Under the pieces are notes generated by a model, which was not told where the DNA came from, did no database searches, and was given only the letters and a program-made list of their open reading frames with translations. From a virus: a DNA stretch of 54,110 nucleotides. The DNA lies in IMG/VR virus record IMGVR_UViG_3300042484_002120, positions 1 through 54,110 of that record. The stretch is one strand, 5' to 3'. Below, piece by piece: positions 1,123 through 52,215 of the stretch. The translations under genes and the position numbers were made by a program. How positions within the stretch are numbered: the stretch's first letter is position 1; every line of letters starts with the position of its first letter.

Positions 1123-2643
1123 ATGCCAGGCGTAGTAATCTCCACAGCAGTCAGAACAGGCCCATCTTCCGCGACAGTGCGCGAATCTTCGCAGCTTTTT
1201 GTTGTCGGATTAGCAGAACGAGGAGCTGTTGGCGAAGCAGTTTTAGTTCAGAGCCTTGCAGAATTTGAACACATGTTCGGCGGATACGTTTCGTATTCGT
1301 ACCTCCACCCAACAGTAGAAACCTTCTTTGAAGAAGGCGGCACTCAGGCTTATATCTCCAGAGTTGTCGGTGCTGACGCAGAATCAGGAACACTTGTTCT
1401 TGAAGATTCTGACGAAGACCCCGTATTGACAATTGACGCAAACGGTGCAGGCGCATGGAGCTCAGATGTTGAAGTTACTGTTACTCAGCCAACAGGAACA
1501 ACCTTTGCAGTTATCATCTCTTACCAAGGTGACCCTGTGTACAACACCGGCAACGTAACTTCTGTAGCACAAGCTGCTGGTCGCATTAACTTGAGCTCAA
1601 TTGCTTCTCGCTACGTAACAGCAACGGCTGTTGTTGGCGCAACAACAAAGCCAGCAGTTCTTTCAGCAACAAACCTCTCAGCAGGAGATGACGACCTTGC
1701 ACAGGTTGACGACGACTCACTGATTGCCGCCCTTGAAGTCTTCAATGACTCGCTCGGTACCGGTGCAGTCTCAATCCCAGACGCAGAAACGGCAACTCGC
1801 CTTTCCGTTGGTGGACCAGTTACTGACTACGATGGCACACTAAAGGCCACTCAGGACGTTTCTACTGCTCTTATTGCTCACGCAAATGCAAATAATAGAA
1901 TTGCTATCCTGCACGGAGGCGCTGCCGATACTGTTGCTAACGCAATCTCGAAGGCAGGAGAACTTAAGGTTCTCACAGAAACCGAGCATGCGGCTATGTA
2001 CTTCCCGTGGGTTAACGTTCCAACAACGATTGCTGGTGTATCAAGGCTTATACCGCCAGACGGCTATGTTGCCGCCAAGCGTGCACAGGCTCACAACCAA
2101 GGTGGAGCACATGTTCCAGCCGCTGGTCTTATCTCTACAGCAAGATTCGTTACAGGTACTGCTCTTGATATCAACAAGACATCTGGTGACCAATTGGATG
2201 ACGAGCAAGTCAACTCAATTAGAATCATTCAAAACTCTGTAAGAATCTACGGTGCTCGTTCATTGTCAATTGACACTGAGAACTTCCGCTACATCACGAC
2301 CCAAGAAATCATCAACCATATCGTTGTTGCTTCTCAGCGGTCTCTCGAAGACCTTGTCTTCGGTGTAATCGACGGACGTGACACCATCTTCTCTGCAATT
2401 ACATCACGATTGATTGCAATTCTTGCTCCATTGCGCGAAGAAGGCGCTTTGTTCCAAGCATTTGATGTCAACGGAAAGAAAGTCGACAGTGGCTACACAG
2501 TTCGTTGCGACTCCTATCTGAACCCAGTCAGCCAACTAGCAGGCGGTACTGTCAAGGCTAAAGTTGGTGTTCGCACCAGCAGTGTCGGCGACAAAATTGA
2601 AGTCGACATTATCAAGTCGAATCTAACCGCTAGCGTCGTCTAA
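1123..2643 (+). CDS. Tail sheath protein
   Basis: A 506-residue protein. The N-terminus (M-P-G-V-V-I-S-T...) runs into a hydrophobic strand F-V-V-G-L-A-E-R-G-A-V-G-E-A and a F-G-G-Y-V-S-Y...T-V-E-T-F-F-E-E-G-G pattern at residues 50-75, the recognisable start of the contractile-tail sheath family (T4 gp18 type). The C-terminal third (about 370-500) has the N-S-I-R-I...Y-G-A-R-S-L and A-F-D-V-N-G-K segments that pack on the tube. It polymerises around the tail tube and contracts at infection. It is preceded by a strong AGGAAGG ribosome site at about 1111 and followed 14 bp later by the tube gene. This gene makes the phage a myovirus. Length is normal for the family. Confidence 0.9.
   Translation: MPGVVISTAVRTGPSSATVRESSQLFVVGLAERGAVGEAVLVQSLAEFEHMFGGYVSYSYLHPTVETFFEEGGTQAYISRVVGADAESGTLVLEDSDEDPVLTIDANGAGAWSSDVEVTVTQPTGTTFAVIISYQGDPVYNTGNVTSVAQAAGRINLSSIASRYVTATAVVGATTKPAVLSATNLSAGDDDLAQVDDDSLIAALEVFNDSLGTGAVSIPDAETATRLSVGGPVTDYDGTLKATQDVSTALIAHANANNRIAILHGGAADTVANAISKAGELKVLTETEHAAMYFPWVNVPTTIAGVSRLIPPDGYVAAKRAQAHNQGGAHVPAAGLISTARFVTGTALDINKTSGDQLDDEQVNSIRIIQNSVRIYGARSLSIDTENFRYITTQEIINHIVVASQRSLEDLVFGVIDGRDTIFSAITSRLIAILAPLREEGALFQAFDVNGKKVDSGYTVRCDSYLNPVSQLAGGTVKAKVGVRTSSVGDKIEVDIIKSNLTASVV

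Positions 2644-12334: not shown

Positions 12335-12335
<1 letters not shown>
10731..12335 (+). CDS. Baseplate hub protein (XkdQ / gp27 / gpD-like)
   Basis: A 534-residue protein 2 bp after the gene before it. The region [21 protein letters not shown] (residues 43-63) is typical of the hub family seen in PBSX XkdQ. It is followed by a long middle segment with [12 protein letters not shown] and V-T-V-T-C-Y-S-R-A. Hub proteins form the ring that holds the spike and connects to the tube. The stop overlaps the start of the spike gene (TAATG at 12333-12337), consistent with the hub-spike pair being made together. The C-terminal 150 residues (from about 370) look like an extra beta domain. Confidence 0.7.
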
Positions 12336-14023
<1,688 letters not shown>

Positions 14024-20820: not shown

Positions 20821-21039
20821 ATGCGTGAACAAATAGGCAAAAATCAAAAATCTAGCCCTGCTGACTTTTTGAAATCAGACACGGAATTTGCACCAACTGC
20901 ACTTCAGCGTGAGCGTTACTCAATCTGTAAGGAATGTCCAGAACTTACAAAAGTTACAAAACAGTGCAAGCAGTGTGGTTGCTTTATGAACCTTAAAGTG
21001 AAACTAAATCACGCAGTCTGCCCACTAGGCAAGTGGTAG
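20821..21039 (+). CDS. Small zinc-ribbon protein
   Basis: A 72-residue protein with C-x2-C (I-C-K-E-C-P), a second C-K-Q-C-G-C set and a last Cys in A-V-C-P-L-G-K-W at the C-terminus. This arrangement of about six cysteines with a terminal C-P-L-G-K-W is a recurrent small phage protein seen near tail genes. It likely binds one zinc ion. Function unknown. The last 15 bp overlap the end of the convergent glycosyltransferase gene. Confidence 0.6.
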   Translation: MREQIGKNQKSSPADFLKSDTEFAPTALQRERYSICKECPELTKVTKQCKQCGCFMNLKVKLNHAVCPLGKW

Positions 21040-22095
21040 TTCTAGCTCGTAGAAGCCCTTGCCCCAAAGCCCTTGCAAACGGGTGAAGTACTTCTCGTAC
21101 ATTAAGCCAACAGCGTCTAACCCGTAGCGGTCTTTTGAGTATTTACTTATTAAAGACCTATCAAGGGTCTTGACTTTCTCAGTTGCATCTGCAAACTCCT
21201 GCATTGTATGGCACCGGAATCCGGTCACTCCGTCAATGACGGTTTCAGTGAAAGCGCCCCAGTCTGTGGAAATAATCGGAGAGCCACAAGCCATAGCTTC
21301 AATCGCTACGGTCCCAAAAGGCTCAACGTAAATAGTTGGGGTAAAAGTAGCAATTGCCCCACCCATGAGTCTGGCTCGCTCCTCGGTTCCCACAACGCCA
21401 ACATACTCGCCATAGTCGGGCGCAGAACCCTGTCCAGCGACCACCAGACGCTTTCCTAGGGCCTTACAGACGTCAACTGCAATCTGATAGCCCTTGCGCT
21501 CAATAAGACGTCCTATGAACAAATAATAGTCATCTGGCGTTTCTTGTAAAGGGAAATCTTGAATATCAATATAACTTGGGATTACCGTGTCGTAGAACTT
21601 ACCGTCAAGGGCGTGTGGGTCGGTCACCTTGGAGCCGTAGCAGGAGTGCATCCAGGCGTAGGACTCAAAAACCTTGTAGTTGGCAAACGAGCCACCATAG
21701 CCAATTCCAAACTCTACGCTCAACTCATCGGGGAACGCATCGGCAATCGGCTTGGAAGCAAATCCAGCGATAAGGCAAATGAAGTCCTTGTGTTCTAGGC
21801 GCTCTTGGATTCCTTTAATTGCATTGCCATTGAACTCAACCCAATGTGGAAGGTTCCAGTCAAACGAGGCGGCCGAGTAATGATTATTACCAACAGCCTC
21901 TAAGCGCTGTTCTTCCGTAATACAGGTGATGTGCTCATCGCAGGGAGCCTCGTTGAACTCTCCACCGTAAAGAAACACGGTATGCCCGAGGTCTTTCATC
22001 ATGATGCAGAACTTACGGACTTTTTCCGTGTAGGCACAAGCCGTGAAGTCTTCAGTGGTGTTCGTGTGAGGCAGGGAAACTACATGAAATCTCAT
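21025..22095 (-). CDS. Family 4 (GT-B) glycosyltransferase
   Basis: A 356-residue protein. The C-terminal half has Y-L-F-I-G-R-L-I-E-R-K-G at about residue 192 and E-P-F-G-T-V-A-I-E-A-M-A-C-G-S-P-I-I-S-T at about 262, which is the E-x7-E nucleotide-sugar motif of GT4 retaining enzymes. Length is normal for the family. It transfers a sugar from a nucleotide donor; acceptor unknown. It stands at the start of the fibre array, next to collagen-like proteins rich in Gly-Pro-Thr. Threonines in such repeats are O-glycosylated in some bacterial collagens (BclA of Bacillus). So it may glycosylate fibres; alternatively it alters the host surface. No membrane segment is visible. Confidence 0.85.
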   Translation of the reverse strand: MRFHVVSLPHTNTTEDFTACAYTEKVRKFCIMMKDLGHTVFLYGGEFNEAPCDEHITCITEEQRLEAVGNNHYSAASFDWNLPHWVEFNGNAIKGIQERLEHKDFICLIAGFASKPIADAFPDELSVEFGIGYGGSFANYKVFESYAWMHSCYGSKVTDPHALDGKFYDTVIPSYIDIQDFPLQETPDDYYLFIGRLIERKGYQIAVDVCKALGKRLVVAGQGSAPDYGEYVGVVGTEERARLMGGAIATFTPTIYVEPFGTVAIEAMACGSPIISTDWGAFTETVIDGVTGFRCHTMQEFADATEKVKTLDRSLISKYSKDRYGLDAVGLMYEKYFTRLQGLWGKGFYELELPLA

Positions 22096-22986: not shown

Positions 22987-26861
<3,875 letters not shown>

Positions 26862-26901
26862 GATTACCTAGTTTACTCTATGTGTAATGGGGCATCCAGA
26901 A

Positions 26902-26922
26902 CTACTAAAAGCTGATTAGTAG
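26902..26922 (-). terminator. Hairpin at the end of the Fn3 fibre gene
   Basis: A perfect 7-bp stem (CTACTAA / TTAGTAG) with a 7-nt loop straddles the stop codon of the Fn3 gene on the - strand, 40 bp upstream of the next fibre start. No long T-run follows, so it is more likely an mRNA end or processing structure than a strong terminator. Confidence 0.3.
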
Positions 26923-28501
26923 GTGTAAGTGTCTGTCCTGGAATCGGGAACAGTTCGCGGTGCACTACTGACGTTCCATCGCTGCTGGTTGCCATTCATT
27001 TCGACTATTACCCTGATTCTCTGGTCCGGAGATGTGGACCACGTGCCAACAGAGCCTGCGCCTCTTACTCGCACTCTTCCTCCGCCTGCACCCGAACCTA
27101 TAGGTACGCTTGGTGCAGTCCAGTTAAGACTTTGCTGTGCTGTTCCTGAGCTGTTCGAAAATGGGGGAGTCAGACAACTTATGCTTGCGGCCGTGCTTGC
27201 TGACGTGCCTGTATTGGAGAAATCAACAATAAAGCTTCTAGAAGAAGTGCAAATAGTGACACCACTAATTACTAGGTTAGCCCTAATGGTCAAAGATGCA
27301 ACCGAGTATCTTCTTGTTCCATCAGGGCAACCAGGACATGTGCTCCCAGTCTGCGAGACTCCAGGAATAGAATAACCAGACGTTTGAGTAAACGAGTTTC
27401 CTGTTACCGTAAACGTTCCCGTAGAATCATTATATGCCTCGTTGCCACCCCAGGAGCTCGTGTCATCATAGACGGTATATGAAGTATCAACAACGACGTT
27501 ATAGGACTGGGTTGCCGTTGTTACAACAGAAGCTTCCGCACTATCTACATAGTCACCGTCAGTGTTCCATGTTCTTGTGAATACATAGTATGTTTCACTT
27601 GCCAACAATGTTCTGTATGAACCCCAGGACGAAGAATAAAGCGTACTGATTGTCCACGTTTTTCCAGCAGCTGAGTTTGTTGTATTTAAATAAGCACTGT
27701 TGGCGTTGTAGCTATACGCGTAACCGGAAAGTTTTATGTACGTTTCTGTATTGGAAAACCCACTACAAGCAAGAGGATTGTAAGTTACCGAGAACTGTCT
27801 AGCTCCCGAACCGTTCCCAGATGCTGGCTGAGTAGGTGAAATAGCTGCAAGAGTTGGTGTTGCTGGAGTGCCAAAGTTTGGAGTAACCGAACCAGAAGTA
27901 GCAACAGTTCCAGCACCTACAGCATTGTTTGCAGTAACCCTAATTTTATAGGAACGAGCTGTAGCCGCAGAGTTGTTTCTAACCGTAAAGGAAACACCGC
28001 TTGTTTGAGAGCCTCGATTTACCCATGCCTCGGCATTTAATTGGGTTTCCACTGTGTACGAACTTACTGCAGTGCCTCCATCGCTTGTTGGCACAGACCA
28101 AGTAGCAGTTATGGTTCTGTCGGATGCAGTTGCAGAAAGGCTCGTTACCGCACTGGGGGTAGTTACCGGAATAACTGACGAGGATATTGACGAGTACTGA
28201 CTCGGCCCTACTGCATTTACTGCAGCTACTCTAAAATAATAAGTGGTGCTGTTTGTTAAACCAGTAACTGTTGTTGAAGTACTCGACGAAACTCCATCAC
28301 TAAACGTTGTTACCGAAGACGCGAAAGTGGCAGAGGTTGAATACTGGACTGTGTAGTCAGTTATGTCTGTGTATCCAGTAAAAGCTGGAGCAGTCCACGA
28401 AAGAGAAACTTGAGCATTGCCAGCAGTTCCAGCAACAGAAGTAGGGGGTCCTGGAGCTGTGTAAAAAACGCTACTAGCTGCGATTCCTCGGCGGATAGCC
28501 A

Positions 28502-28502
<1 letters not shown>
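26916..28502 (-). CDS. Fibronectin type III tail protein
   Basis: A 528-residue protein with two Fn3-like domains (about residues 16-112 and 113-205, each with W-T-A-P or W-S-V-P, Y-T-V and Y-Y-F-R-V-A-A-V-N-A-V-G type motifs). A middle beta region follows (210-330), with a C-terminal domain (F-I-V-D-F-S-N-T, W-T-A-P-S...G-G-G-R-V-R-V-R) that matches the end of the + strand protein at 18705-20798. Its ATG overlaps the stop of the upstream fibre gene (TAATG at 28502). Probably a virion surface adhesin. It looks like a divergent paralog of the + strand Fn3 protein with fewer Fn3 copies. Confidence 0.7.
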
Positions 28503-29500
<998 letters not shown>

Positions 29501-29533
29501 GTGGGTAATTATACCCCAAGATGCTTGAGGGGC

Positions 29534-29821
29534 CTAAAACCACCAGAAGTGTTTAAGGATTGAAAGGCTAGCCAGAATTACCCACAGCACATTGAAGAGA
29601 ATGATTGTGGGGAGTGTCTTTTTCGTAGATGTCCAAATCAGGGCGACGCTGGAGATGATGGCGAAGATGTAGAGCCACCAGAACTGCTTGCCTAGTAAAA
29701 GGCCAGGAAAGATGATGGCAATCTTGGTGGAGAAACCCCATGCTTCAACAATGTTGACTCGTGTCCAGTATTCTTTGGAACTCATTGTTTTTACTGCTGA
29801 AATGATTTTCTTAAAAAACAT
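29534..29821 (-). CDS. Small three-helix membrane protein
   Basis: A 95-residue protein with three hydrophobic segments (about residues 32-48, 50-64 and 72-90), rich in Trp, and a charged N-terminus (M-F-F-K-K-I-I-S-A-V-K). I do not recognise a family. Its ATG is separated from the P450 ATG on the other strand by only 16 bp, which hold a palindrome with possible -10 boxes for both genes, and it has no ribosome site. It could be co-regulated with the P450 and might be a membrane partner, but no function can be stated. Confidence 0.55.
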   Translation of the reverse strand: MFFKKIISAVKTMSSKEYWTRVNIVEAWGFSTKIAIIFPGLLLGKQFWWLYIFAIISSVALIWTSTKKTLPTIILFNVLWVILASLSILKHFWWF

Positions 29822-29837
29822 GTCTAGAATCTAGCAT
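29822..29837. promoter_or_regulatory. Overlapping divergent leaderless promoters around a CTAGA-A-TCTAG palindrome
   Basis: The 16-bp gap between the two start codons is nearly filled by CTAGAATCTAG, an 11-bp palindrome with one central base. Read on +, it gives TAGAAT (five of six matches to the -10 consensus) at 29825-29830, 7 nt before the P450 ATG. Read on -, it gives TAGATT 6 nt before the ATG of the membrane protein. Neither gene has a ribosome site. This is the geometry of leaderless mRNAs, which are common in Actinobacteria. No clear -35 is seen. Confidence 0.5.
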
Positions 29838-31070
29838 ATGCCCATAAACGTAAACAACCTTGAAATGCCTTTCTTAAACTCTCGTGTAGAGATGAAGAAC
29901 GAGGACTATTCCCGTGAGGACTTTTTTAACATGGCTCGGGATGTGGCAGACAAGTCATGGATTGCCCGTAGCGCCGTAGGGTACAACATTTTTCATCATG
30001 ACGATATTTCTGCAATCATGAGAGATAGACGCTGGCATAGTGCTTTAGGCATTTTGGCTGATTTGAACCCATTCACAACACCTGATTTTAAACGCCGCCG
30101 TAAAACATCAATTATTGCAATTGACGGTGAGGAACATAATCGTTTAAAGCGCCTGCTTACCCCTCACTTCAGCCCATCTATCGCAGATGACCTTCGCCCA
30201 TTTATGCGTGATGTAGTTAATGAACTAGTAGATAAATTTATTGGAAATGGAGAAGCGGATATCGCAGCAGATATTTCACGGCAATATCCAGTAAGAATAA
30301 TTTGCCACCTCCTTGGCATACCACACGATGACTTGGATAGATTTAGCAAATGGGCAGTTGACATGTTGAGAAATTTTGACATGAACTATGAAAAATCTAC
30401 AGAATCAATCCTTCAGTCCCAAAAAGAGATGGATGAATATGTAGAAGGATTCATTGAACTTCGCAGAGCAAACCCACAAGATGACCTCATCTCCATGTTA
30501 GTCAACGCTGAAGATAATGGTGATGTTCTTTCTAATGAAGAAATAATGACACTAATTGAAGCGCTAATGATTGCAGGGATTGACACAACACAGAACCAGT
30601 TAAGTACTGCCGTTTCTATACTTATAGATAACCCAACAGCATGGTCACTTCTTTCCGAAGACCCCAGTAGTGCCAAATTTATCGTGGAGGAACTGATGCG
30701 TATGAACGGTTCAGTATCCAATACGGGGAGAATTGCCGCAGAGGACATTGAATACAGGGGAGTATTATTTCCTAAAGGAACAATAATGTTCGTCAATCTG
30801 GCTGTAGCCAACTACGACATGTCTACATTTGTGAACCCTGACGAGTTTATTCATAATCGTAGAGAACTTGAATCAATGCATATGTCTTTTGGGATGGGGC
30901 TTCACTACTGCCTTGGGGCACCAATTGCTCGTGCCGAAATACAAGAAGCGCTTATCATTATTGCAAACAGGCTAAAAAACATTCAGCGCAATGGTGAAAC
31001 TATTTATAAAGACGAAAACTCTGCCGTGTACGGCCCTGTTTCGCTCCCGGTAACATTTTCTAAATACTGA
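29838..31070 (+). CDS. Cytochrome P450
   Basis: A complete 410-residue class-I-type bacterial P450. All hallmarks are present: H100-N-R in the C-helix region (G-E-E-H-N-R-L-K-R), the I-helix oxygen-activation motif A246-G-I-D249-T250-T251, the E285-L-M-R288 pair (ExxR), and the haem loop F351-G-M-G-L-H-Y-C358-L-G with the thiolate Cys358. It should be a soluble cytoplasmic haem monooxygenase that needs a ferredoxin and reductase; none is visible in the window, so host partners are implied. Substrate unknown. It is the only long + strand gene inside the - strand fibre array and converges on the halogenase operon. P450 genes are rare in phages. I see no frameshift or missing residue. Confidence 0.95.
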   Translation: MPINVNNLEMPFLNSRVEMKNEDYSREDFFNMARDVADKSWIARSAVGYNIFHHDDISAIMRDRRWHSALGILADLNPFTTPDFKRRRKTSIIAIDGEEHNRLKRLLTPHFSPSIADDLRPFMRDVVNELVDKFIGNGEADIAADISRQYPVRIICHLLGIPHDDLDRFSKWAVDMLRNFDMNYEKSTESILQSQKEMDEYVEGFIELRRANPQDDLISMLVNAEDNGDVLSNEEIMTLIEALMIAGIDTTQNQLSTAVSILIDNPTAWSLLSEDPSSAKFIVEELMRMNGSVSNTGRIAAEDIEYRGVLFPKGTIMFVNLAVANYDMSTFVNPDEFIHNRRELESMHMSFGMGLHYCLGAPIARAEIQEALIIIANRLKNIQRNGETIYKDENSAVYGPVSLPVTFSKY

Positions 31071-31141
31071 AGTTCTTCCTCTGACATCACTATGCCAACC
31101 TGAAGAAGCATGGCTTTGAGCTTCTCTAAACGTTCATCCAT
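31004..31141 (-). CDS. 45-residue protein overlapping the 3' end of the P450 gene
   Basis: A short frame, M-D-E-R-L-E-K-L-K-A-M-L-L-Q-V-G...E-E-E-L-Q-Y-L-E, starts at 31141 on the stop of the 222-residue gene (TAATG) and ends at 31004, so its last 22 codons lie antisense to the P450 end. The translational coupling and a helical, charged N-terminus support a real gene, but the antisense part may be passive. Function unknown. It would be the last gene of the - strand halogenase operon. Confidence 0.45.
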   Translation of the reverse strand: MDERLEKLKAMLLQVGIVMSEEELQYLENVTGSETGPYTAEFSSL

Positions 31142-31809
31142 TATAGTTCGTCCATAATCTGCTCAAATGACTTTTCTGGGTAGTCAATTGTCAATTGGGT
31201 AATCCAGTCTTTAAATTCTTGAGACGCTTCAGGGTATGGATGAGGAATCGACTTATAGTTTTCTTCACCCTTTAAGAACTTGGCCAAATGCATATCGGGC
31301 AATGCGTCTATTTCTTCAAGAATCGATTGTGGAATATCGAGAGTTTCAAAAACCAGTTTAGAATATGCGGCCATTGGGTGGTCTGAATTGAATGGCTCTT
31401 CTGCCATGAATGACCATTCGCGCATGTTTTTGAACAATTGAAATATTGACTTGGCGCCCCACATTGTTGACGGCGTGGGGTCAGTCTCCGAGTCATGCCA
31501 TTCATTCATCTCTAGGTAACCAAAAAGGAATTTAGGGTGTAAAACTATTGGAAATGCAAACTTGGCAACTTTAAGTACTTCCAGCTTGACTTCAGAAACT
31601 ACTGTTTTGTCATACCAAGAATGGGCGTGGTTAGCATATTCTGTTCCTTCTGATACGAGAAGGCCTGTGTATGTAAGATTGTCGCACCGGTCTAAACTTG
31701 AGTTTTTGCCGGTGTTTGTTCCCTCTTGTAAAAATTCACTTTTTAATAAAATAAAAACACCCTTTAAAGAAGGGTCCGAACTGCGGAGAAGTATTTCTGG
31801 TTCAAGCAT
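31141..31809 (-). CDS. Unknown protein of the halogenase operon (222 aa)
   Basis: A soluble 222-residue protein with an AGGAG ribosome site. Its start overlaps the end of the 79-residue gene by 8 bp. It is rich in aromatics and His (H-A-H-S-W-Y-D at about 62, E-W-H-D-S-E-T-D at about 104, H-P-K-F-L-F-G-Y at about 92). The first 100 residues look like beta strands and the rest is helical. I do not recognise the family. Several His/Asp/Glu residues might form a metal site, but no pattern is diagnostic. Its tight linkage to halogenase and oxygenase genes suggests it serves the same pathway, perhaps as another oxygenase or a substrate carrier; this is a guess. Confidence 0.6.
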   Translation of the reverse strand: MLEPEILLRSSDPSLKGVFILLKSEFLQEGTNTGKNSSLDRCDNLTYTGLLVSEGTEYANHAHSWYDKTVVSEVKLEVLKVAKFAFPIVLHPKFLFGYLEMNEWHDSETDPTPSTMWGAKSIFQLFKNMREWSFMAEEPFNSDHPMAAYSKLVFETLDIPQSILEEIDALPDMHLAKFLKGEENYKSIPHPYPEASQEFKDWITQLTIDYPEKSFEQIMDEL

Positions 31810-32041
31810 TTTCTAGCTCCTGAATTTTATTTACTATAACAATCATTTGTTTACATCTTTTTTCTAATTGACCACTGTGCGACAATATAGGAGAATTGGG
31901 AATTGCCTCAAAAGAAGAGTAGTCAAAAACATCAGGGTCTAAACCGCAGCGAAAACAAAGTTTATACACCTCAACTGATATCGCTTTTTTCATTTCATAA
32001 AGCGCAGAAATCTTACTTTCTACTTCGCTGAATTCAGACAT
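31802..32041 (-). CDS. Small GLDPD protein A (79 aa)
   Basis: A 79-residue, mainly helical protein with a central C-G-L-D-P-D-V-F-D-Y motif (about residues 33-41). It is clearly related to the 76-residue protein at 35346-35576: both share E-x-K-x-x-A-L near the N-terminus, then an I-x-x-x-x-Y helix, R-x-G-L-D-P-D-x-(F/Y)-D and a helical C-terminus. The two paralogs bracket the halogenase operon. Four cysteines are present but not spaced like a zinc finger. Function unknown; a small helical chaperone or partner protein is possible. Confidence 0.6.
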   Translation of the reverse strand: MSEFSEVESKISALYEMKKAISVEVYKLCFRCGLDPDVFDYSSFEAIPNSPILSHSGQLEKRCKQMIVIVNKIQELENA

Positions 32042-32048
32042 GTTTGTC

Positions 32049-32846
32049 TCATCTCTGCTTATTGATTAACCTAGCAATTATACCTTGCTTGTCATTTTGA
32101 TTTTCTAATTGCTTGTCTACACGGATTCGCTCCCTGCGGTAAGGTGCTGCCGTTCCATCACGTGGAGCAACGTGGCCCATCCCAAACCCAGTAGTAGCAA
32201 CGTATTTAAAGTAAGACTCGTCATTGAAGTCTATTTTTTCAAAATCTGCGTTGCGTTTAAATGGGACTAACTGGACTAGAGGGGTTCCGTGTTTTATCCC
32301 AAAAGGGCGGTCTGTGGTTATGTTTAAAACCACATTCGCTAGGTGATAGAAGTCCGTATGAACCACAGCTGGAACTACCGTATAGTTCTCGTTAGGTTCC
32401 CAGTAGACCGGGAGAATCATTGTTGACCAGCCTGGTGCAGTCTCAAACCTCCATGGATTCACTATTTTGGGATACTGTCCTGTTTCCAGTTTTCTTACGC
32501 TCGTCATAGGGCACTCACCTGTTGACTCATAACCAAAACCTGAAATATTAGCTATTCCGGCTTCAGGACTAAATTCATCAGCACCGTGTTCCCAGCCACC
32601 TGCGCCATCTGGCCTAAATCTAAAATTGGTCCACGCTGGCAAAGTGACTCCAGCAGATAAAAAATCTATAGTTCCAGCACACTTACGCAAGGAGCCTTGA
32701 TGTTTTCCAATTTGCCTAAACCACTGAGGTGGCTGAGAAATAGAATTTACAGTTGGCGGAGATTCCATCAAGCGATTATCAACAGGAGTAAACCTAATAA
32801 CCCCAGGCTTCACCTTTGGTAATTTTTTCATTTCATTGCCATTCAC
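32049..32846 (-). CDS. DUF6065-like protein next to the halogenase
   Basis: A 265-residue protein whose ATG lies 14 bp inside the end of the halogenase gene; an in-frame ATG at 32831 is a possible later start. The stretch W-R-F-E-T-A-P-G-W-S-T-M-I-L-P-V (about residue 131), the H-T-D-F-Y segment and H-G-T-P-L-V-Q-L-V-P-F-K-R (about 189-201) resemble, from memory, the uncharacterised DUF6065 family (cupin-like beta fold), but this was not checked. It is tightly coupled to the halogenase, so it may bind or deliver the substrate, or be a second modifying enzyme. Confidence 0.6.
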   Translation of the reverse strand: MNGNEMKKLPKVKPGVIRFTPVDNRLMESPPTVNSISQPPQWFRQIGKHQGSLRKCAGTIDFLSAGVTLPAWTNFRFRPDGAGGWEHGADEFSPEAGIANISGFGYESTGECPMTSVRKLETGQYPKIVNPWRFETAPGWSTMILPVYWEPNENYTVVPAVVHTDFYHLANVVLNITTDRPFGIKHGTPLVQLVPFKRNADFEKIDFNDESYFKYVATTGFGMGHVAPRDGTAAPYRRERIRVDKQLENQNDKQGIIARLINKQR

Positions 32847-34341
32847 TGTCTGTGTATCTGATTTCCCTCAAAGCCTCTGCGTGGTCAACAAGTTCGTGCG
32901 CATGTCTACTGTGACGTATTTCGTCAATTTTTTTATTTACTTCTTGTCGCAAATTGGTTGTGTTAAGAGCTCTAACGCATCCAACAACACCTATCAAGCC
33001 TTGACCTTGTGCAACATGGGCCATGTGAGGGGTTAAAAACATCTCGCCTGAAGTTGAATCAAAGTCGTATCTAGACGGAGGCACTTCAGCCCACAAATCT
33101 ATGATTGATTGAAGTTCTTCATTGATTGGCATGTGGGACATTGTTTCCCAAAATTTAGAATCAGTACGGTCAGAATAATAATGAAGCCTAATCATGGAAA
33201 GAATATTATTCATCATTTTCGTAAACTTCGCATTAAAGTGTTTTTGCGAAGCATGATTAGACGGCATGTACGAAGCAATGTAAGGCAGCATGAACCGCAC
33301 TTGTTGAATTGTTGAACCTATGCTTGTTGCTTCTAGTGGCTCAACAAATGAGGAAGCTAAACCAACGGCACAGCAATTATTCACCCAGCATTCTTTTAAA
33401 TGCCCTGCATCAAACGAAATGACGCGAGGATTTTCAATTTTGTATCCGGACATTTCTTCGGCTTCATGTATAGCCTCGTCTTGGCTAATAAATTGAGAAG
33501 AAAAAACATACCCGTTACCGCGACGTTCTTGTGTTGGTATTTCCCACATCCAGCCAGCACTTGCTGCTCTAGCGCGAGTGTATGGTCTTATCCTGCCGTT
33601 TGGGTCGCTTTCTGTTGGGAACGGAATCGCGGTGTCGCACAAAAGGTATTTGTCAAAAGAAACCCACTCATCCGCATCTAGTTCTTTCATTAAAACACGA
33701 TTAAAACCGCTTGCATCAAACCAGAAGTTTGCACTGACAGTGTCTCCGTGGTTTGTTTCAATAGATTCAATATTGCCGTACGTACTGTCTCTGGTCACTT
33801 TCTTGACCTCGGCATCCACGAACTTAATATTTCTCTTAAACGCTAGTGACGTAAAGTAATCGTTAAGTTTGTTTGTATCAAAATGAAACTGATTTGTAGA
33901 TTTGTGCAAATTTTGTCTATTGATTTTATCTTTTACCAGACCTACGCTTGTTGTCTGGGTCGTAAACAGTTTGTTTTTTTCTACCATTCCCATATAGGTC
34001 GCATAAAGCCCAAAAGCATAGATGTCGTCAATTTCACCAACGCTGTGGAAATAGTCCTTAGTGTGGGTTGACCAATTTTCAAACCTTAATCCGTACTTAT
34101 GCGTAGCGGCAGTGGCTTCAATCATCTCTTCCAATGGAATCTCGCACAAGTCCATGAACGTTTTCCAGTGCTCAGTGCTTCCTTCTCCAACGCCAATGAT
34201 GCCAATCTTGGAGGATGAAACAATTGTTATTTCAGCCCACGGAAAAGACTGCCTAAGTATCAGTGCTGTTATTAGTCCTGCAGTTCCTGAGCCAACGATT
34301 CCAAAAACTAGAGGCCTATTTAGTTCGGTATTTTCGTTCAT
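32833..34341 (-). CDS. Flavin-dependent halogenase (tryptophan halogenase family)
   Basis: A 502-residue protein. Residues 14-22 hold the FAD dinucleotide motif G-I-V-G-S-G-T-A-G. The catalytic lysine that forms or positions hypohalous acid is K82 (T-H-K-Y-G-L-R-F-E-N-W, aligned to K79 of PrnA). The halogenase signature G-W-x-W-x-I-P is at 263-269 (G-W-M-W-E-I-P). E337 in E-P-L-E-A-T matches the second catalytic acid. Length is normal. It should oxidise halide with FADH2 and O2 and halogenate an electron-rich substrate; a flavin reductase must come from the host. A cyanophage halogenase of this family (VirX1) iodinates diverse substrates, so substrate class cannot be read from sequence. No ribosome site is seen; TAGTAT lies 6 nt before the ATG. 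Confidence 0.93.
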   Translation of the reverse strand: MNENTELNRPLVFGIVGSGTAGLITALILRQSFPWAEITIVSSSKIGIIGVGEGSTEHWKTFMDLCEIPLEEMIEATAATHKYGLRFENWSTHTKDYFHSVGEIDDIYAFGLYATYMGMVEKNKLFTTQTTSVGLVKDKINRQNLHKSTNQFHFDTNKLNDYFTSLAFKRNIKFVDAEVKKVTRDSTYGNIESIETNHGDTVSANFWFDASGFNRVLMKELDADEWVSFDKYLLCDTAIPFPTESDPNGRIRPYTRARAASAGWMWEIPTQERRGNGYVFSSQFISQDEAIHEAEEMSGYKIENPRVISFDAGHLKECWVNNCCAVGLASSFVEPLEATSIGSTIQQVRFMLPYIASYMPSNHASQKHFNAKFTKMMNNILSMIRLHYYSDRTDSKFWETMSHMPINEELQSIIDLWAEVPPSRYDFDSTSGEMFLTPHMAHVAQGQGLIGVVGCVRALNTTNLRQEVNKKIDEIRHSRHAHELVDHAEALREIRYTDSEWQ

Positions 34342-34357
34342 TATTGAATACTAACAC
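34342..34357 (-). promoter_or_regulatory. Possible leaderless promoter of the halogenase gene
   Basis: On the - strand, TAGTAT is followed by 6 nt and the halogenase ATG, in the short gap after the oxygenase gene. No ribosome site is present. The same TAGTAT, 6 nt, ATG arrangement stands before the winged-helix gene at 50650. TAGTAT matches four of six bases of the -10 consensus, so this is suggestive only. Confidence 0.35.
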
Positions 34358-34942
34358 CTATTTAAACCAAGAGACAAGAGAGTATTTCGTACCCTGAATA
34401 ACAGGGTGAGCGATATGGAGGTAAGGAAAATTGCTTGGGAACAAAATTACAGAACCTAATTTTGGTTCAACCGTTACGCCAAATGTTGGGAATTCCAATT
34501 CTCCACCTAATTCAGGTTCACCAAGTATTGTCACAACACTAAAAACTCGCGAGTTATCTCTAAAGTGGTCATAATGAGCATGATACTCAGAGCCTGGAAG
34601 ATACTTCAAAACAGAATAAGGCTCGTGAAAGCCATTTGGCAACATGTGTTCTTCTGAGTAATCCCTTATCGCTTTTTCCATTGGAAGGCGAACAGCAGAA
34701 TCAAACAAGCGAGACAAGTCGGTTGGCTCATACGGCTTCATTAGTGGAATTAATCCGCACTCTAATGAAGTTCGGTAGGAAGTGACCGACCCTCCTTCTC
34801 CAACCCCAGAGTTCCCCCAAGTGAGTTCACTCCACTCATTTTCTGCTTCTGTATTTAAACAGTCTATGAAATTAGCAACACTTGACGGGTCTAGCATCTC
34901 TTCATAAACAGAAATGCATGTTGCTGGGGATACGTGATTCAT
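34358..34942 (-). CDS. 2-oxoglutarate/Fe(II) oxygenase, prolyl 4-hydroxylase-like
   Basis: A 194-residue protein with the jelly-roll oxygenase signature. H123-Y-D125 (A-H-Y-D-H) supplies two iron ligands, H179 (H-P-V) the third, and K186 after H-P-V-I-Q-G-T-K binds 2-oxoglutarate. P-x-x-G-S-V-I-L-F-P at about 160-169 is the usual strand before the distal His. Length fits the stand-alone P4H-like group. It would hydroxylate a protein side chain or a small molecule using O2 and 2-oxoglutarate. The genes around it encode many Pro-rich collagen-like fibres, so these prolines are one candidate substrate; a small molecule shared with the halogenase is the other. The start overlaps the upstream gene by 4 bp. 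Confidence 0.88.
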   Translation of the reverse strand: MNHVSPATCISVYEEMLDPSSVANFIDCLNTEAENEWSELTWGNSGVGEGGSVTSYRTSLECGLIPLMKPYEPTDLSRLFDSAVRLPMEKAIRDYSEEHMLPNGFHEPYSVLKYLPGSEYHAHYDHFRDNSRVFSVVTILGEPELGGELEFPTFGVTVEPKLGSVILFPSNFPYLHIAHPVIQGTKYSLVSWFK

Positions 34943-35349
34943 ATTGCCTCAAATTCTCCTGAATAATACCGGTTTCCATCAGGAGAGCAAACGATAAAAG
35001 TTTTTTTGCCAGGAGTCGTTATACGAGGCCTAAATCTTATTATGTGATTTTCTCTTAATCTAGGAACAAAAACTTCAGTACCGTTGTTTCCTGTAATGCG
35101 CAAAGTGGTTTTTTTATTAAAAACTACAAACTCATTAGTAATGTCAATACTGTAAATAAATCCAGTTTTTGCGGTTTGTTTAAATTCAATATTATTCACT
35201 TCTGGAGTTGAAATAATGGAGATTTTATTAGCAAAAATACCATCTTCTTGATTGCCGTATCTTATTTGCAGACCAGAAAGTTTTGCTAACTTTTCTGCTT
35301 CACCGGCTTCATTAGTTATATTCCAGGGAATATAAACAAATCGCTTCAT
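34939..35349 (-). CDS. Unknown beta-rich protein of the halogenase operon (136 aa)
   Basis: A 136-residue protein with no recognised domain. The sequence (F-V-Y-I-P-W-N-I-T-N-E-A-G-E-A-E-K-L-A-K...F-V-V-F-N-K-K-T-T-L-R-I-T-G...T-F-I-V-C-S-P-D-G-N-R-Y-Y-S-G-E-F) suggests mostly beta strands. It overlaps both neighbours by 4 bp (ATGA), so it is made together with the oxygenase. It may be a partner or a structural protein. Codon use looks like that of its neighbours, rich in A and T. Confidence 0.55.
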   Translation of the reverse strand: MKRFVYIPWNITNEAGEAEKLAKLSGLQIRYGNQEDGIFANKISIISTPEVNNIEFKQTAKTGFIYSIDITNEFVVFNKKTTLRITGNNGTEVFVPRLRENHIIRFRPRITTPGKKTFIVCSPDGNRYYSGEFEAI

Positions 35350-35576
35350 GACAATTCGGCTATTTTGCTTTCAATTAAATCAAGAGACGAAATCAAGGTG
35401 TTTACCCTGGTGCGCTCGCCAACAAAAGAATCAATTGGGTCACTTGCCAGCAAAGGGTCATAAGCATCAGGGTCTAGGCCCATGCGAATTAATTGAGTGT
35501 AGATGTCTGTTTGAATTCCACTTTTAACAGAATTCAAAGCCATCAATTTTTGTTCATTTGTAAGACCAAGGTCCAT
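35346..35576 (-). CDS. Small GLDPD protein B (76 aa)
   Basis: A 76-residue helical protein with R-M-G-L-D-P-D-A-Y-D (about residues 31-40). It is a paralog of the 79-residue protein at 31802-32041: the central helix-GLDPD-x-aromatic-D block aligns without gaps. It starts the halogenase operon and lies 9 bp after the His-rich fibre gene start region, so it may be transcribed with the fibres from upstream. Function unknown; small size and two copies suggest a binding or chaperone role. Confidence 0.6.
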   Translation of the reverse strand: MDLGLTNEQKLMALNSVKSGIQTDIYTQLIRMGLDPDAYDPLLASDPIDSFVGERTRVNTLISSLDLIESKIAELS

Positions 35577-35585
35577 CTTTTTCTC

Positions 35586-37592
35586 CTAAATATTTATAAG
35601 AACGTATGCTGACCCAGAAGAGGCAGCAAAGTTGTCTGAATCTGCTGTTAGACCTGCGCGAGTGTCGTATGTAATTGTACCCGCTACCGAGTCACTAACT
35701 ACGAGAATAGCACCTCCGCCACCTGCGCCGCCTCGCTTGCCGGTTGTTCCCGTACCGCCTGAGCCACCTGCTCCGCCTGTGCCACCTGCTCCTCCGGAAC
35801 CTCCGGAACCGCCTGCTCCTCCTGCTCCGCCTGCTCCTCCTGCTCCTCCTGCTCCTCCTGCTCCGCCTGCTCCGCCTGCTCCTCCTGCTCCTCCTGGATA
35901 AACGGTTGGAGGGTTTGCTACTGAAGTTGGAGCATTGGGGTGGTGGGACCACGTGTTGGTTCTGGTTGGGGAGTGAGAATGCGCACCATGAGCGGGCGTG
36001 TGGGCGTTGGGATGAGTGTGATATTCATGGGTTGAATGAGGTGTCCAATGATTATCGTGACCTATGAATCTCCCGTGATACCTACGGTCGTCGTGTCCAC
36101 CCTCACTGCTGGGATGACTGTGTCCGCCATGTCCGTTTGGCTTTGCATGGTAATGAGGGAATGGATAGTGATGACTTAACTGAAAGTAAGCATGCCACCA
36201 GTGAGGGTTCCAGTGATGCGAGCCACCATGGGGGCCATCATTGTGCGGATGGTGTTCATGTCCATTGTGATGATGATGTGGATTTGCGTGGTGATGCGGA
36301 GTTCCTCTATGAAAGTGATGAGGGGTCGCGTGGGCATAATGGTGACCCTTGATATCTGAAGCATGTACGTGTTCCTGAACGTTTTCGTGCTGTTGAGTAT
36401 GGGCTCTTGTGGCATGACCATGAAAGTTTGAATGATTTGTGTAGTGGTGATGATGGGATGGATTATGTGTTGCAGCATTTGGGTGCGTATGTGGCGCGTT
36501 GTGAACACTCAATGATGGAGCGGAGCCTCCAGGACTTCCAGTAGCACCAGTGCTTCCAGATGCCCCAGCAGCGCCAGCGGCTCCAGATGCTCCTACCGCT
36601 CCAGATGCTCCAGATGCCCCAACAGGACCACTCGCTCCAGATGAACCCGTTGCTCCTGATGAACCTGATGAACCAGTTGTACCCGAAGAACCTACGGAAA
36701 TAAACTTTCCTGACCCAATAATGTGTTTAGCGACCACACAGACGATTCCTCCACCAAGACCGCCTGCTCCTCCAGCGCCGCCTGCTCCTCCTAAACCAGG
36801 GGAGCCAGTTGCGCCAGGACTACCAGAAGAACCAGGACTACCAGAAGAACCAGGGCTTCCGCTTGCTCCACTGCTTCCAGTTGCCCCAGCAGTACCCGAC
36901 GCTCCGACAGAACCAGGATTACCCTGTCCGCCAGAAGCACCAACTGTTGTTGCTGACGGTCCATATGAACCTGTTGCTCCAGGGGAACCTGTTGCACCAG
37001 CAGAACCAGGACTACCAGTTGCGCTAGCGGGCGTACCAGTTGCTCCAGCAGAGCCAGTTGCTCCAGGGCTTCCTGTGGCACCTGCGCTTCCTGTTGCTCC
37101 AGGACCTGTTGCTCCAGAAGGGCCTTGTGAACCAGATGCGCCTTTAGACCCTCCACCAATAGGAATCATCCCTGTGGTGTGCATGAACACTCCACCAGAC
37201 ATTGCGTTGATGTCTTTGTATAGATATTCAGGAAGTGCGGTTATTCCAGGGCTAGTTCCGCCTCCACCTTGTCCACCAGCACGATAAGTAATCGCGGATT
37301 GAGAATGGCCTTTGACTGTTCCGTCAGAAACGGTAGATGCGGCTTCACCAACTGTCCCAGAAGAGACAGAACCAATTCCGATGTAGCCATTATTTGTAAG
37401 AGTGTTCTTAACAAAGACTCGGTAGCCATTTGTATTGAGGAAAACGTCTGCATTAATCACCAGATTGTTATAGAACATGTCTGACGTAATCGCTGTGTTT
37501 GATGTTACGACTACGTCGCCGTCCCCACCATGTCCGTATATTTCGTCATTAGCAGCACGAGCAACGCTTTTTTCAATTCTAGAAATAGCCAT
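35586..37592 (-). CDS. Collagen-like and histidine-rich tail fibre
   Basis: A 668-residue protein with an AGGTG ribosome site. Residues about 15-75 form a module shared with the 254-residue protein encoded upstream (Y-G-x-G-x-D-G-D...G-Y-R-x-F-V-K). Then come collagen-like Gly-Ala-Thr/Ser tracts (150-265 and 303-358), a Gly-rich core with G-G-G-I-V-C-V-V-A-K at 280, and residues 362-555 containing 58 histidines in 194 residues with many HxH and HHH clusters. A long G-G-A tract and a C-terminal strand G-G-G-G-A-I-L-V-V-S-D follow. The His domain should bind divalent metals. It looks like an insertion into the simpler scaffold of the neighbouring gene. Probable virion fibre. Confidence 0.75.
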   Translation of the reverse strand: MAISRIEKSVARAANDEIYGHGGDGDVVVTSNTAITSDMFYNNLVINADVFLNTNGYRVFVKNTLTNNGYIGIGSVSSGTVGEAASTVSDGTVKGHSQSAITYRAGGQGGGGTSPGITALPEYLYKDINAMSGGVFMHTTGMIPIGGGSKGASGSQGPSGATGPGATGSAGATGSPGATGSAGATGTPASATGSPGSAGATGSPGATGSYGPSATTVGASGGQGNPGSVGASGTAGATGSSGASGSPGSSGSPGSSGSPGATGSPGLGGAGGAGGAGGLGGGIVCVVAKHIIGSGKFISVGSSGTTGSSGSSGATGSSGASGPVGASGASGAVGASGAAGAAGASGSTGATGSPGGSAPSLSVHNAPHTHPNAATHNPSHHHHYTNHSNFHGHATRAHTQQHENVQEHVHASDIKGHHYAHATPHHFHRGTPHHHANPHHHHNGHEHHPHNDGPHGGSHHWNPHWWHAYFQLSHHYPFPHYHAKPNGHGGHSHPSSEGGHDDRRYHGRFIGHDNHWTPHSTHEYHTHPNAHTPAHGAHSHSPTRTNTWSHHPNAPTSVANPPTVYPGGAGGAGGAGGAGGAGGAGGAGGAGGAGGSGGSGGAGGTGGAGGSGGTGTTGKRGGAGGGGAILVVSDSVAGTITYDTRAGLTADSDNFAASSGSAYVLINI

Positions 37593-37593
37593 A

Positions 37594-38357
37594 TCACACC
37601 TGTGACATATAGTAGACGGTTCCTGGGTTTTGTCCAGTTACATCAGTGGTTATTCCAGGAGCCAATACTTCAGCAGAAGAAACGATGAGAATTACTCCTC
37701 CGCCTGCAGGGGCAGTTCCCGGCGCTTTGATGTAAGCCGTGCCTGACGCTGGTCCAGAAATGTAGCGAGCAGCAATGATAACTATTCCGCCCCCAACTTG
37801 ACCTAGTCCGCCAGCACCTCCACGCAAAAAGGTAGGACCACCTGCAGCAGTGACGGAATAACCAGTAATTGCTTGTCGTGGAATTCTGAAGTAGTTAGCG
37901 CCACCCATTGATGAGTGGGGAACAGTTGCCAAGACGCCAGTCGCGGCTCCACCTAAAGAATGAAGTACTGGTTCCAGTATTCCTCCGCCCTGGGCGATAG
38001 AGCCAGCGGTTGCAAAACCGGTCGTGTAACCAATCGTTGAGTTGGTTCCCATGAACTTTAATGTGCCCTTAACGAAGATTCTGTATCCGTCGGGCTGTAG
38101 GCGGCAACTCGTATTGATGGTCAAATCGTTGAAGTACATATCGCGCGTCATTGTATAGACACTCGCAGACGGAGCCATGCTTAGGACTGTCGTGGTTCCG
38201 TCAAGTACAGCATCGCCGTCAGCGCCTGTTCCATAAACAGAGTCAACGGATTCGTTAAAGTAGGCATTCCAGACTGTTCCATCAAATTGCCAACTCTTAG
38301 AGCCGACAGTAAATATTTGATTTACATACGGAGAAGCAGGAAAAGTAATCGCTGGCA

Positions 38358-38358
<1 letters not shown>
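37594..38358 (-). CDS. Tail fibre scaffold protein, paralog of the His-rich fibre
   Basis: A 254-residue protein. Its N-terminus (P-A-I-T-F-P-A-S-P-Y-V-N-Q-I-F...W-Q-F-D-G-T-V-W) recalls the N-terminal module of the collagen fibres. Residues about 39-105 (Y-G-T-G-A-D-G-D-A-V...D-L-T-I-N...G-Y-R-I-F-V-K-G-T-L) and the end (G-G-G-I-V-I-I-A-A-R-Y-I-S-G ... G-G-G-V-I-L-I-V-S-S) match the first and last parts of the His-rich protein, without its collagen and His domains. It starts on the stop of the 49-residue gene (TAATG). A minimal fibre head is likely. Confidence 0.6.
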
Positions 38359-41935
<3,577 letters not shown>

Positions 41936-50740: not shown

Positions 50741-51025
50741 GTGCTTAAAGATGCACTAAGAGCTGTAGCCCAGGGCGAAAGCAAAAAGACATGCAAGTTT
50801 GGTTCCATAACCACTTCGCTGGATAACGAAACCAGAGAGGCACTTATTCTTGCTATGGCAAGCGAAGCGTCCACTATGGATATTACAAGAGCACTTTGTT
50901 CTGACGGTCACTCCATAGGGAGAGATGTTGTTGGCGTAAAAAGGGCATGTTTCAAGGACCCGTCCTTCAACTGCTGTATCCGTGAAACTATCGATAGCTG
51001 TATAGCAAAGAACGAAGGTAAATAA
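50741..51025 (+). CDS. Small HTH-like protein (94 aa)
   Basis: A 94-residue protein starting at GTG 50741 with GGAGGA ribosome site. Residues about 30-62 (T-R-E-A-L-I-L-A-M-A-S-E-A-S-T-M-D-I-T-R-A-L-C-S...I-G-R-D-V-V-G-V-K-R) look like a helix-turn-helix, and five cysteines are present (residues 18, 53, 70, 77-78 and 87 or nearby). It overlaps the metallophosphoesterase start. Possibly a DNA-binding partner of it. Family not recognised. Confidence 0.5.
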   Translation: MLKDALRAVAQGESKKTCKFGSITTSLDNETREALILAMASEASTMDITRALCSDGHSIGRDVVGVKRACFKDPSFNCCIRETIDSCIAKNEGK

Positions 51026-52215
51026 TGTCCGCAAAGAAAGAAACTCTCTCTTCAGCCTTGGGGTCCATGGCTAAGGAAAAGAAGAAATCTGAAGAAAACA
51101 AGAAGGTCCTGGAGTCAATTGCAGAAATGCTCCGACTTAAAGACATTAGTCTCGACGATGTTGGTGATATTAAAAAGATAACAATTAACCAGTCTTCTAC
51201 CCAAAACCCAGAAAACCCTTCTGAGACAAGGGAATCAGCTCGTGTAGCAATCCAGTTTTCACCCAAATGGGACAACGGCCCAGAGTGGCCAATAGTCCAA
51301 CAAAGTAAGCCCATACAACTACAAAAGACAACGACAAAACCCAAAGCATCAACTGGGTTCAAAACGTGTGTTGTGGTCCCTGATATACAGATAGGTTTCT
51401 TCCGAAATAAAGACGGAGAACTAGAGCCATCACATGATGACAAGGCTATCGACATCGTTTTGGCGATGATAAAGAAGCTTCAGCCGGAATTAATTGCCTG
51501 TGTTGGGGATAACTTGGACCTTCCAGAGATGGGCAAGTATGTCACTTATCCTGCATATGCCCAAACCACCCAAGCTTCGATAGATAGGGCCGCAATGTTT
51601 TGCGCTCAAATGCGAGCCGCAGCCCCAAATGCCAGAATTGTCTGGCTGGCTGGTAACCATGAAGAAAGAATGCCCAAGTATCTAGTCCAAAATGCTGGAG
51701 CAGCCTATGGATTAAGAAAAGGCAACACCCCAGAATCCTGGCCAGTACTTTCAGTCCCTTATCTTTGCCGAATGGAAGACTATGGAGTTGAGTACAAGCC
51801 CGGATATCCGGCAGCCGACCTGTGGATAAACAAGAAATTACGAATTATTCATGGAGACCGTGTTAAGTCTTCTGGCTCAACTGCCCATGTATATCTAAAC
51901 AATGAGAAACATTCTGTCATTTACGGCCATATCCACCGTATTGAGACAGCTTTCAAGACCAGAGAAGATTTTGACGGTGCCCGTACCATCATGGCTGCTT
52001 CACCTGGATGCCTTTGTCGTACAGATGGGGCGATTCCGTCCACTCGTGGAGGCGTAGACCTTGATGGTCGCCCTCTCACAAGGCATGAAAACTGGCAACA
52101 AGGCGTTGGAGTAGTCACATACGAAGATACCGGCAAGCACAAGTTCTCCTATGAAGTAGCACCGATATACAACGGCTGGTGCATGTTCCGTGGAGTAGAG
52201 TACATCGCGGAATAA
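51025..52215 (+). CDS. Calcineurin-like metallophosphoesterase
   Basis: A 396-residue protein. From residue 115: V-V-V-P-D120-I-Q122 (DxH motif with Gln in place of His), G161-D162-N163, G210-N211-H212-E213, H276-G and G301-H302-I-H304. This is the full set of metal ligands except the first His; the DxQ variant is common in phage copies. The N-terminal 110 residues are charged and helical with a Pro/Thr linker, perhaps for DNA or protein binding. It probably cleaves phosphodiesters (nuclease or phosphatase); the substrate is unknown. The stop overlaps the next start (TAATG). Confidence 0.85.
   Translation: MSAKKETLSSALGSMAKEKKKSEENKKVLESIAEMLRLKDISLDDVGDIKKITINQSSTQNPENPSETRESARVAIQFSPKWDNGPEWPIVQQSKPIQLQKTTTKPKASTGFKTCVVVPDIQIGFFRNKDGELEPSHDDKAIDIVLAMIKKLQPELIACVGDNLDLPEMGKYVTYPAYAQTTQASIDRAAMFCAQMRAAAPNARIVWLAGNHEERMPKYLVQNAGAAYGLRKGNTPESWPVLSVPYLCRMEDYGVEYKPGYPAADLWINKKLRIIHGDRVKSSGSTAHVYLNNEKHSVIYGHIHRIETAFKTREDFDGARTIMAASPGCLCRTDGAIPSTRGGVDLDGRPLTRHENWQQGVGVVTYEDTGKHKFSYEVAPIYNGWCMFRGVEYIAE

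Follow-up and report, generated by a model that had tools for sequence, protein, structure and literature searches.

Cytochrome P450 genes carried by viruses have been published for giant viruses, for a herpesvirus and for Mycobacterium phage Adler, as reported in PMC9405906. For freshwater actinophages no report of a P450 was identified in the literature searched, most subscription journals lying outside of that search, and the passages considered from PMC9405906, PMC10452541, PMC12607003 and PMC10611076 contain none. A complete P450 gene is regarded as rare among bacterial viruses and as almost unheard of in phages. The work reported here concerns a P450 gene that was noticed in the letters of an uncultured virus, its relatives in other viral contigs, its bacterial source and the possible use of its chemistry by the phage.

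A P450 gene among phage genes

The window, i.e., the whole stretch of DNA that was analysed, is the IMG/VR virus record IMGVR_UViG_3300042484_002120 and comprises 54,110 bases. The features required for the following description are:

1123..2643, + strand, tail sheath, with phages of Actinomycetota as top matches
29534..29821, - strand, gene for a 95-aa hydrophobic protein, bordering the P450 slot whether or not a phage carries the P450
29756..35580, no strand given, block replaced between the window and contig G405
29838..31070, + strand, cytochrome P450, phage type A (open reading frame, PF00067, PDB matches and motifs)
30573..30590, + strand, I-helix motif AGIDTT, P450 residues 246-251
30687..30701, + strand, ExxR motif within E-E-L-M-R, P450 residues 284-288
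30888..30917, + strand, heme-binding motif FGMGLHYCLG with Cys358, P450 residues 351-360
31141..31809, - strand, 222-aa phage-only protein g222, adjoining the P450, without known family or PDB fold
32049..32846, - strand, 265-aa phrog_7084 family protein, function not assigned
32833..34341, - strand, flavin-dependent (tryptophan) halogenase family protein, catalytic motifs present
34358..34942, - strand, 2OG-Fe(II) oxygenase
34939..35349, - strand, 136-aa cassette protein, family search empty

The P450 reading frame starts with ATG, encodes 410 aa and possesses a single stop at its end, lying exactly at 29838-31070 (+), where the original prediction had placed it. The profile search identified PF00067 with an E-value of 3.5e-29 (102 bits as compared to a cut-off of 22.8), while phmmer matched 586 distinct PDB chains at E<=0.001, the best of these with 8e-60 for residues 53-405; the top solved relative, though distant, is PDB 3wvs, described as a 'putative monooxygenase' (205.8 bits, residues 53-405). 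AGIDTT, EELMR and FGMGLHYCLG, which had been predicted to be intact, are all so in the window and are retained in the relatives of the protein, and the domain-wide profile match along with the signatures FxxGxHxCxG, ExxR and the I-helix (A/G)GxDT identifies a member of the P450 superfamily. With PF00067 being the sole domain of its 410 aa, the protein is a stand-alone heme domain that lacks a fused reductase, as is characteristic for class I. The gene is, on sequence grounds, confirmed to be a genuine P450, and with relatives of 84% and 78% identity in two other viral contigs and a dN/dS of 0.048-0.090 it lies far beyond what chance would yield.

Tailed-phage genes are located on either side of the P450, the hallmarks of the window comprising the tail sheath (phrog_23), tail-fibre and baseplate-J matches and collagen-like fibre genes flanking both sides. 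That the gene resides on a phage, as originally predicted, holds for this virus record with its tail, baseplate and fibre genes around the P450, and the gene thus shows the position expected of an auxiliary metabolic gene, within a phage genome and between phage genes. The type A P450 is convergent with the 222-aa gene and divergent from the 95-aa gene, with 16 bp separating the two start codons.

On the minus strand, the P450 is adjoined by a cassette consisting of g222, the phrog_7084 protein, the flavin-dependent halogenase, the 2OG-Fe(II) oxygenase and the 136-aa protein. The AlphaFold model of g222 is good (pLDDT 84.6); the structure search revealed its fold to be common to three uncharacterised phage proteins only, without a PDB fold match at E<=0.001, and g222 has no match among 50,697 phage records. 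The model of the phrog_7084 protein is poor (pLDDT 40.7), and a dUTPase-like identity was considered for it and rejected, as the profile match was weak and not significant (E 0.17). The halogenase matches PF04820 with 7.1e-101 and shows gsgtag, athkyg and wmweip in the alignment, as expected for this family; GxGxxG, the catalytic Lys and WxWxIP are what we take to be the catalytic motifs of flavin-dependent halogenases.

Further observations were made elsewhere in the window. Collagen-like fibre proteins are encoded around the oxidative cassette, which includes the 2OG-Fe(II) oxygenase, at 12335-14023, 22987-29500 and 35586-41905, and a glycosyltransferase gene is located at 21025-22095. A 1708-aa reading frame (3965-9091) with a Gly-zipper match below cut-off probably encodes the tape measure protein. 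The reading frame at 52179-52856 has a weak proteasome/HslV-like match (Pfam Proteasome 4.9e-6, above cut-off; NCBIfam HslV 4e-4), adjoins a metallophosphatase reading frame (51025-52215) and is possibly a proteasome-fold phage protease. A promoter scan of positions 28000-36000 returned 18 matches as compared to 15.2 in shuffles, i.e., no excess, and TATAAATA, which we take to resemble the T4 late promoter, occurs 66 times in the whole window with <=1 mismatch, where 39.2 occurrences are expected from shuffles.

A family of phage P450s in three kinds of setting

A first query of viral contigs with the P450 identified the two relatives mentioned above, and a query with g222 returned 34 loci. 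At 10 of these 34 (tblastn), a P450 is found between g222 and the 95-aa gene or, at a contig end, directly after g222. Three of the ten belong to type A, lie on the strand opposite to g222 and are 84, 78 and 52% identical to the window P450; the other seven belong to type B, are codirectional with g222, starting ~11 bp after it, and are 35-37% identical to that of the window. At least 16 of the 34 loci have the 95-aa gene coming after g222 with no P450 in the slot. A PF00067 search of 18 records revealed a further P450 far from g222 on a 93,785-bp contig, which led to type C, for which the gene is located between SNase-like and pyrimidine-dimer glycosylase genes (15 contigs), with class II RNR, ThyX and DnaB nearby where the contig extends that far and also with glycosyltransferases in the vicinity. 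Type B' was found with the type B query, is 60% identical to type B and stems from contigs of 104,067 and 267,766 bp, in the latter of which a helicase and a subtilase are located upstream of the P450. The family hence comprises at least 29 viral contigs, the window included, with four subtypes (A, 4 contigs; B, 8; B', 2; C, 15) and three kinds of genomic setting, a count which is a lower bound as the scans were pattern-based.

A length above 350 aa together with a stop is found in 25 copies (16 distinct proteins), 24 of which have 398-415 aa, and the remaining four of the 29 end at contig ends. Each of the 26 copies that are long enough to show both the heme and the I-helix motif has the two of them, with Tyr replacing the first Phe of the heme motif in B'. 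One type C copy (L163, 4917-5981, 355 aa) underwent an in-frame loss of ~43 codons in the C-helix region and is either in decay or wrongly assembled.

Among 50,697 phage records the type A query gave one weak match (23.5% identity) and the type C query gave none. The statement that P450s are rare in phages agrees with this, to the extent that a search blind to unrelated P450s can speak to it; in uncultured viruses the family is more widespread, with 29 contigs carrying the gene.

Probable origin from freshwater Acidimicrobiia

A first scan of bacterial genomes with alignment A1 returned no relative, and a second scan yielded 105, the best 80 of which are 40-48% identical to the phage P450 and mostly derive from MAGs titled Acidimicrobiia, Ilumatobacteraceae or Actinomycetota; a few titles (e.g., Bifidobacterium breve, Acidobacteria) look like mislabelled MAGs, and this sampling, too, was pattern-based. 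In nine of nine such genomes, 277-342 bits were reached by the best match to the type B query, with the next paralog not exceeding 190.

The careful tree (60 rows, near-duplicate phage rows and bacterial rows >85% identical having been thinned) was rooted on 13 paralogs and grouped A with B (100/96), the L045 row being sister to this clade (100/98). When A or B was removed, the remaining type still joined L045 (A 99/95, B 96/83). Addition of B', of C and of further L045-group rows resulted in a rooted tree of 58 rows, from which all but two outgroup rows and two type B rows were left out, and here all 12 phage rows grouped in a single clade (100/99), present in 100% of 200 bootstrap trees and sister to four bacteria of the L045 group; the phage branches are long and their amino-acid make-up is odd, which may inflate this clade. 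AU tests, for which the groups were named after the tree was seen, rejected A, B and C each alone with L045-group bacteria (p 0.0008, 0.0011 and 0.0003, respectively), which disfavours separate captures of the three types from the sister bacterial group. A recent capture from one host species was ruled out by the rooted trees and the AU tests.

The rooted trees show the phage copies to be one clade nested in a freshwater Acidimicrobiia P450 family. As all copies fall into this one clade, a single old capture is suggested: the P450 was apparently captured once, long ago, from bacterial hosts, and would thereafter have diverged and moved between phage genomes. In the original prediction a clade of viral P450s was to indicate an old phage lineage and a position within one host species a very recent capture; an old phage lineage was found, without placement within one host species. 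The identity and the origin of the P450, taken alone, are held with high confidence.

The sister group is formed by freshwater Acidimicrobiia/Ilumatobacteraceae P450s (L045, L048, L051 and L054), which over the whole protein are 45-46% identical to the phage P450 and have the RWH and heme motifs in common with it, whereas the I-helix reads GGTDTT in the bacterial consensus and AGIDTT in the phage P450. In 51 of 80 loci of the bacterial ortholog an aldehyde dehydrogenase is matched, often together with an ABC transporter, an alanine dehydrogenase and a luciferase-like monooxygenase, and this locus context suggests that the bacterial ortholog may be involved in the breakdown of a small and perhaps nitrogenous molecule. 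In the annotated phage loci, the P450 is not adjoined by any of the bacterial neighbours considered. Type A retains 10 of the 13 bacterially conserved positions in SRS1, 8 of 18 in the I-helix region and 5 of 8 in SRS5, and the phage copies keep 8-10 of 18 in the I-helix region and 3-5 of 8 in the SRS5 region, the SRS regions being placed approximately, where we presume them to lie. As the substrate-recognition regions are only partly common to bacteria and phage, a changed substrate is possible.

Matches of the tail sheath are in 94 of 99 records phages of Arthrobacter, Gordonia, Streptomyces or Brevibacterium; those of baseplate-J, covering a fifth of the protein, are Gordonia phages in 14 of 14 cases; and the RNR of type C shares 80% identity with its counterpart in Actinomycetia phage DSL-LC01, a phage assembled from a lake metagenome with Actinomycetia as its predicted hosts (PMC10611076). 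These matches, along with the P450 donor, point to a freshwater Actinomycetota host, and the phage probably infects freshwater Actinomycetota, with Acidimicrobiia being likely. The phage marker g222 was absent from all 395 genomes searched that belong to the class of G001, so that the link to the host is an indirect one.

Selection and electron supply

Following Nei-Gojobori, dN/dS values of 0.080, 0.048 and 0.090 were obtained among the type A copies of the window, L002 and L003, one dS of these pairs being 3.36 and hence near saturation. Among type B copies the values amount to 0.043-0.059, with more distant pairs, saturated or nearly so, left out and those of L005 versus type B being higher (0.35-0.47). 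The dN/dS of 0.04-0.09 in the usable pairs argues for strong purifying selection, and the substitution pattern thus shows the phage P450 to have been kept intact under it. The original view that selection has kept the gene agrees with this low dN/dS, with the uniform length of the full copies and with the motifs retained throughout. Being host-derived and kept by selection, the gene also in this regard resembles an auxiliary metabolic gene.

According to PMC9405906, viral genomes encoding P450s had yielded no redox partners up to the date of that report. Searches for Fer4_15, Fer2, Pyr_redox_2 and Flavodoxin_1 were each empty in ten of ten P450-phage records, which may be fragments and include the one of 267,766 bp; the search covered these four named families, Fer4_13 lying outside, and the same searches were positive in 5, 12, 14 and 10 of 14 known genomes, respectively. 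An own ferredoxin was also sought by a loose motif scan, which gave chance-like matches only, and was rejected. The earlier remark that no ferredoxin or reductase is seen was thus extended from the window to ten records and four families. As a consequence, host electron donors are likely to be used, while the earlier wording, by which the use of host redox partners is a must, goes too far for a window that is a fragment.

Exchange of the oxidative cassette

The original prediction does not mention the halogenase/2OG oxygenase cassette, the exchange of which between close phages was not visible from the window alone. The type B contig G405 is largely collinear with the window, most of it, apart from the replaced block, being covered by stretches with mostly 91-96% identity at the nucleotide level; some fibre regions drop to 66-85% or are unaligned, and the tail sheath proteins share 99% identity. 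A 5.8-kb block (~29,756-35,580) is replaced in G405: three stretches align with 65-73%, the P450 does not, and the block holds a different P450 in the orientation opposite to that of the window. Comparison of another contig (L009) with the window revealed 93-95% identity for the halogenase, the 2OG oxygenase and the 136-aa proteins and 88% for the phrog_7084 protein, as compared to 37% for its type B P450 and 60% for g222. This near-identical halogenase side next to a divergent P450 and g222 indicates exchange also within the block.

The halogenase was found in 8 of 12 records tested, among them all three type C contigs >90 kb, where it is far from the P450; none was found in the two shorter type C contigs and the two B' contigs tested, which are fragments. 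In three loci (L034-L036) g222 is ~5-8 kb away from the halogenase cassette, which is hence not always contiguous. A strict co-evolving pair of P450 and g222 was considered and dropped, as their identities do not track each other. Block replacement and halogenase distribution support the view of exchangeable modules, while a shared pathway stays unproven.

Possible functions of the phage P450

The function that we consider rather probable is that of a phage-resident, host-derived P450 monooxygenase, an auxiliary metabolic gene product which would draw electrons from the host and act on one of its small molecules. During infection the soluble, class I-type P450 would obtain electrons from host ferredoxin and reductase and would hydroxylate a small molecule made by the host, the substrate probably being close to that of the host ortholog, which is encoded beside aldehyde dehydrogenase and transporter genes. 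Host metabolism would thereby be altered in favour of the phage, the P450 being an auxiliary metabolic gene. The three kinds of genomic setting suggest a role independent of any one neighbour.

A different function, which we regard as possible yet rather unlikely, would tie the P450 of types A and B to its cassette, whereby the P450, the halogenase, the 2OG-Fe(II) oxygenase, the phrog_7084 protein and g222 would oxidise and halogenate one product, be it a small molecule or a part of the virion surface such as the collagen-like fibres, with versions being swapped for variation. The recurrence of the P450 in the g222/95-aa slot or after g222 at contig ends (10/34 loci), the ~11-bp, same-strand arrangement of type B, the replacement of the 5.8-kb cassette as a block between flanks of mostly 91-96%, the catalytic motifs retained by the halogenase (the motifs as we presume them) and the halogenase on the three type C contigs >90 kb, with the P450 elsewhere, are consistent with this. 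However, type C sits in a replication/nucleotide region away from the cassette, the halogenase is absent from the two B' and the two shorter type C contigs tested (fragments), at least 16 of the 34 g222 loci have the cassette but no P450 in the slot, the type A P450 is on the opposite strand, and the identities of g222 and P450 do not rise and fall together. It is correspondingly improbable that the P450 serves as the variable part of an oxidative-tailoring island that is located among collagen-like fibre genes and swapped in different versions by close phages; if true, such an island would represent a phage-owned pathway for serotype-like variation of a halogenated or hydroxylated virion surface or of a secreted small molecule.

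Glycosyltransferase activators derived from P450s usually lack the heme Cys, and the phage protein might likewise be a non-catalytic fold, i.e., a helper devoid of oxygenase chemistry. The glycosyltransferase at 21025-22095, the glycosyltransferases near type C and a match to NCBIfam TIGR04515 (119.5 bits) would fit with this, but the match is far under the cut-off of 343 for activator membership, the window protein retains the heme Cys, the D-T pair and ExxR, and heme and I-helix motifs persist in 26 of 26 testable copies, rendering such a function very unlikely. Least plausible, and already contradicted, is that the gene is a stray, recently acquired from a host, or an assembly chimera, with no function for the phage: the location in an exchangeable region and the in-frame loss in the L163 copy would be in line with it, but several contigs share the same slot with phage genes on both sides, dN/dS is low, and the phage clade is well apart from bacteria, the best bacterial identity being 48%.

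Comparison with known phage enzymes

For the host-derived monooxygenase, Mycobacterium phage Adler is among the closest described cases, being likewise an actinobacteriophage with a P450, and at that time no redox partner had been found in viral genomes (PMC9405906). The window query did not match the Adler P450 in the 50,697 phage records, the two sequences not having been compared directly; if present in that collection, the Adler P450 is thus not a close relative. What is unusual here is a phage-borne P450 clade with a resolved donor lineage, an order of events, i.e., capture followed by diversification, signs of selection and a pattern of exchange; with four related enzymes and a host ortholog at hand, the question of how phages use P450 chemistry becomes directly testable. 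Halogenase matches are present in 65 phage records as compared to one with a P450 match (the two lists were not cross-checked), phage S-H38 being the best phage match to the window halogenase (36.8%). The latter belongs to the same flavin-dependent family as VirX1 of cyanophage Syn10 (PDB 6qgm, 144.6 bits), and the swapped halogenase/P450 block may help to explain the purpose of phage halogenases.
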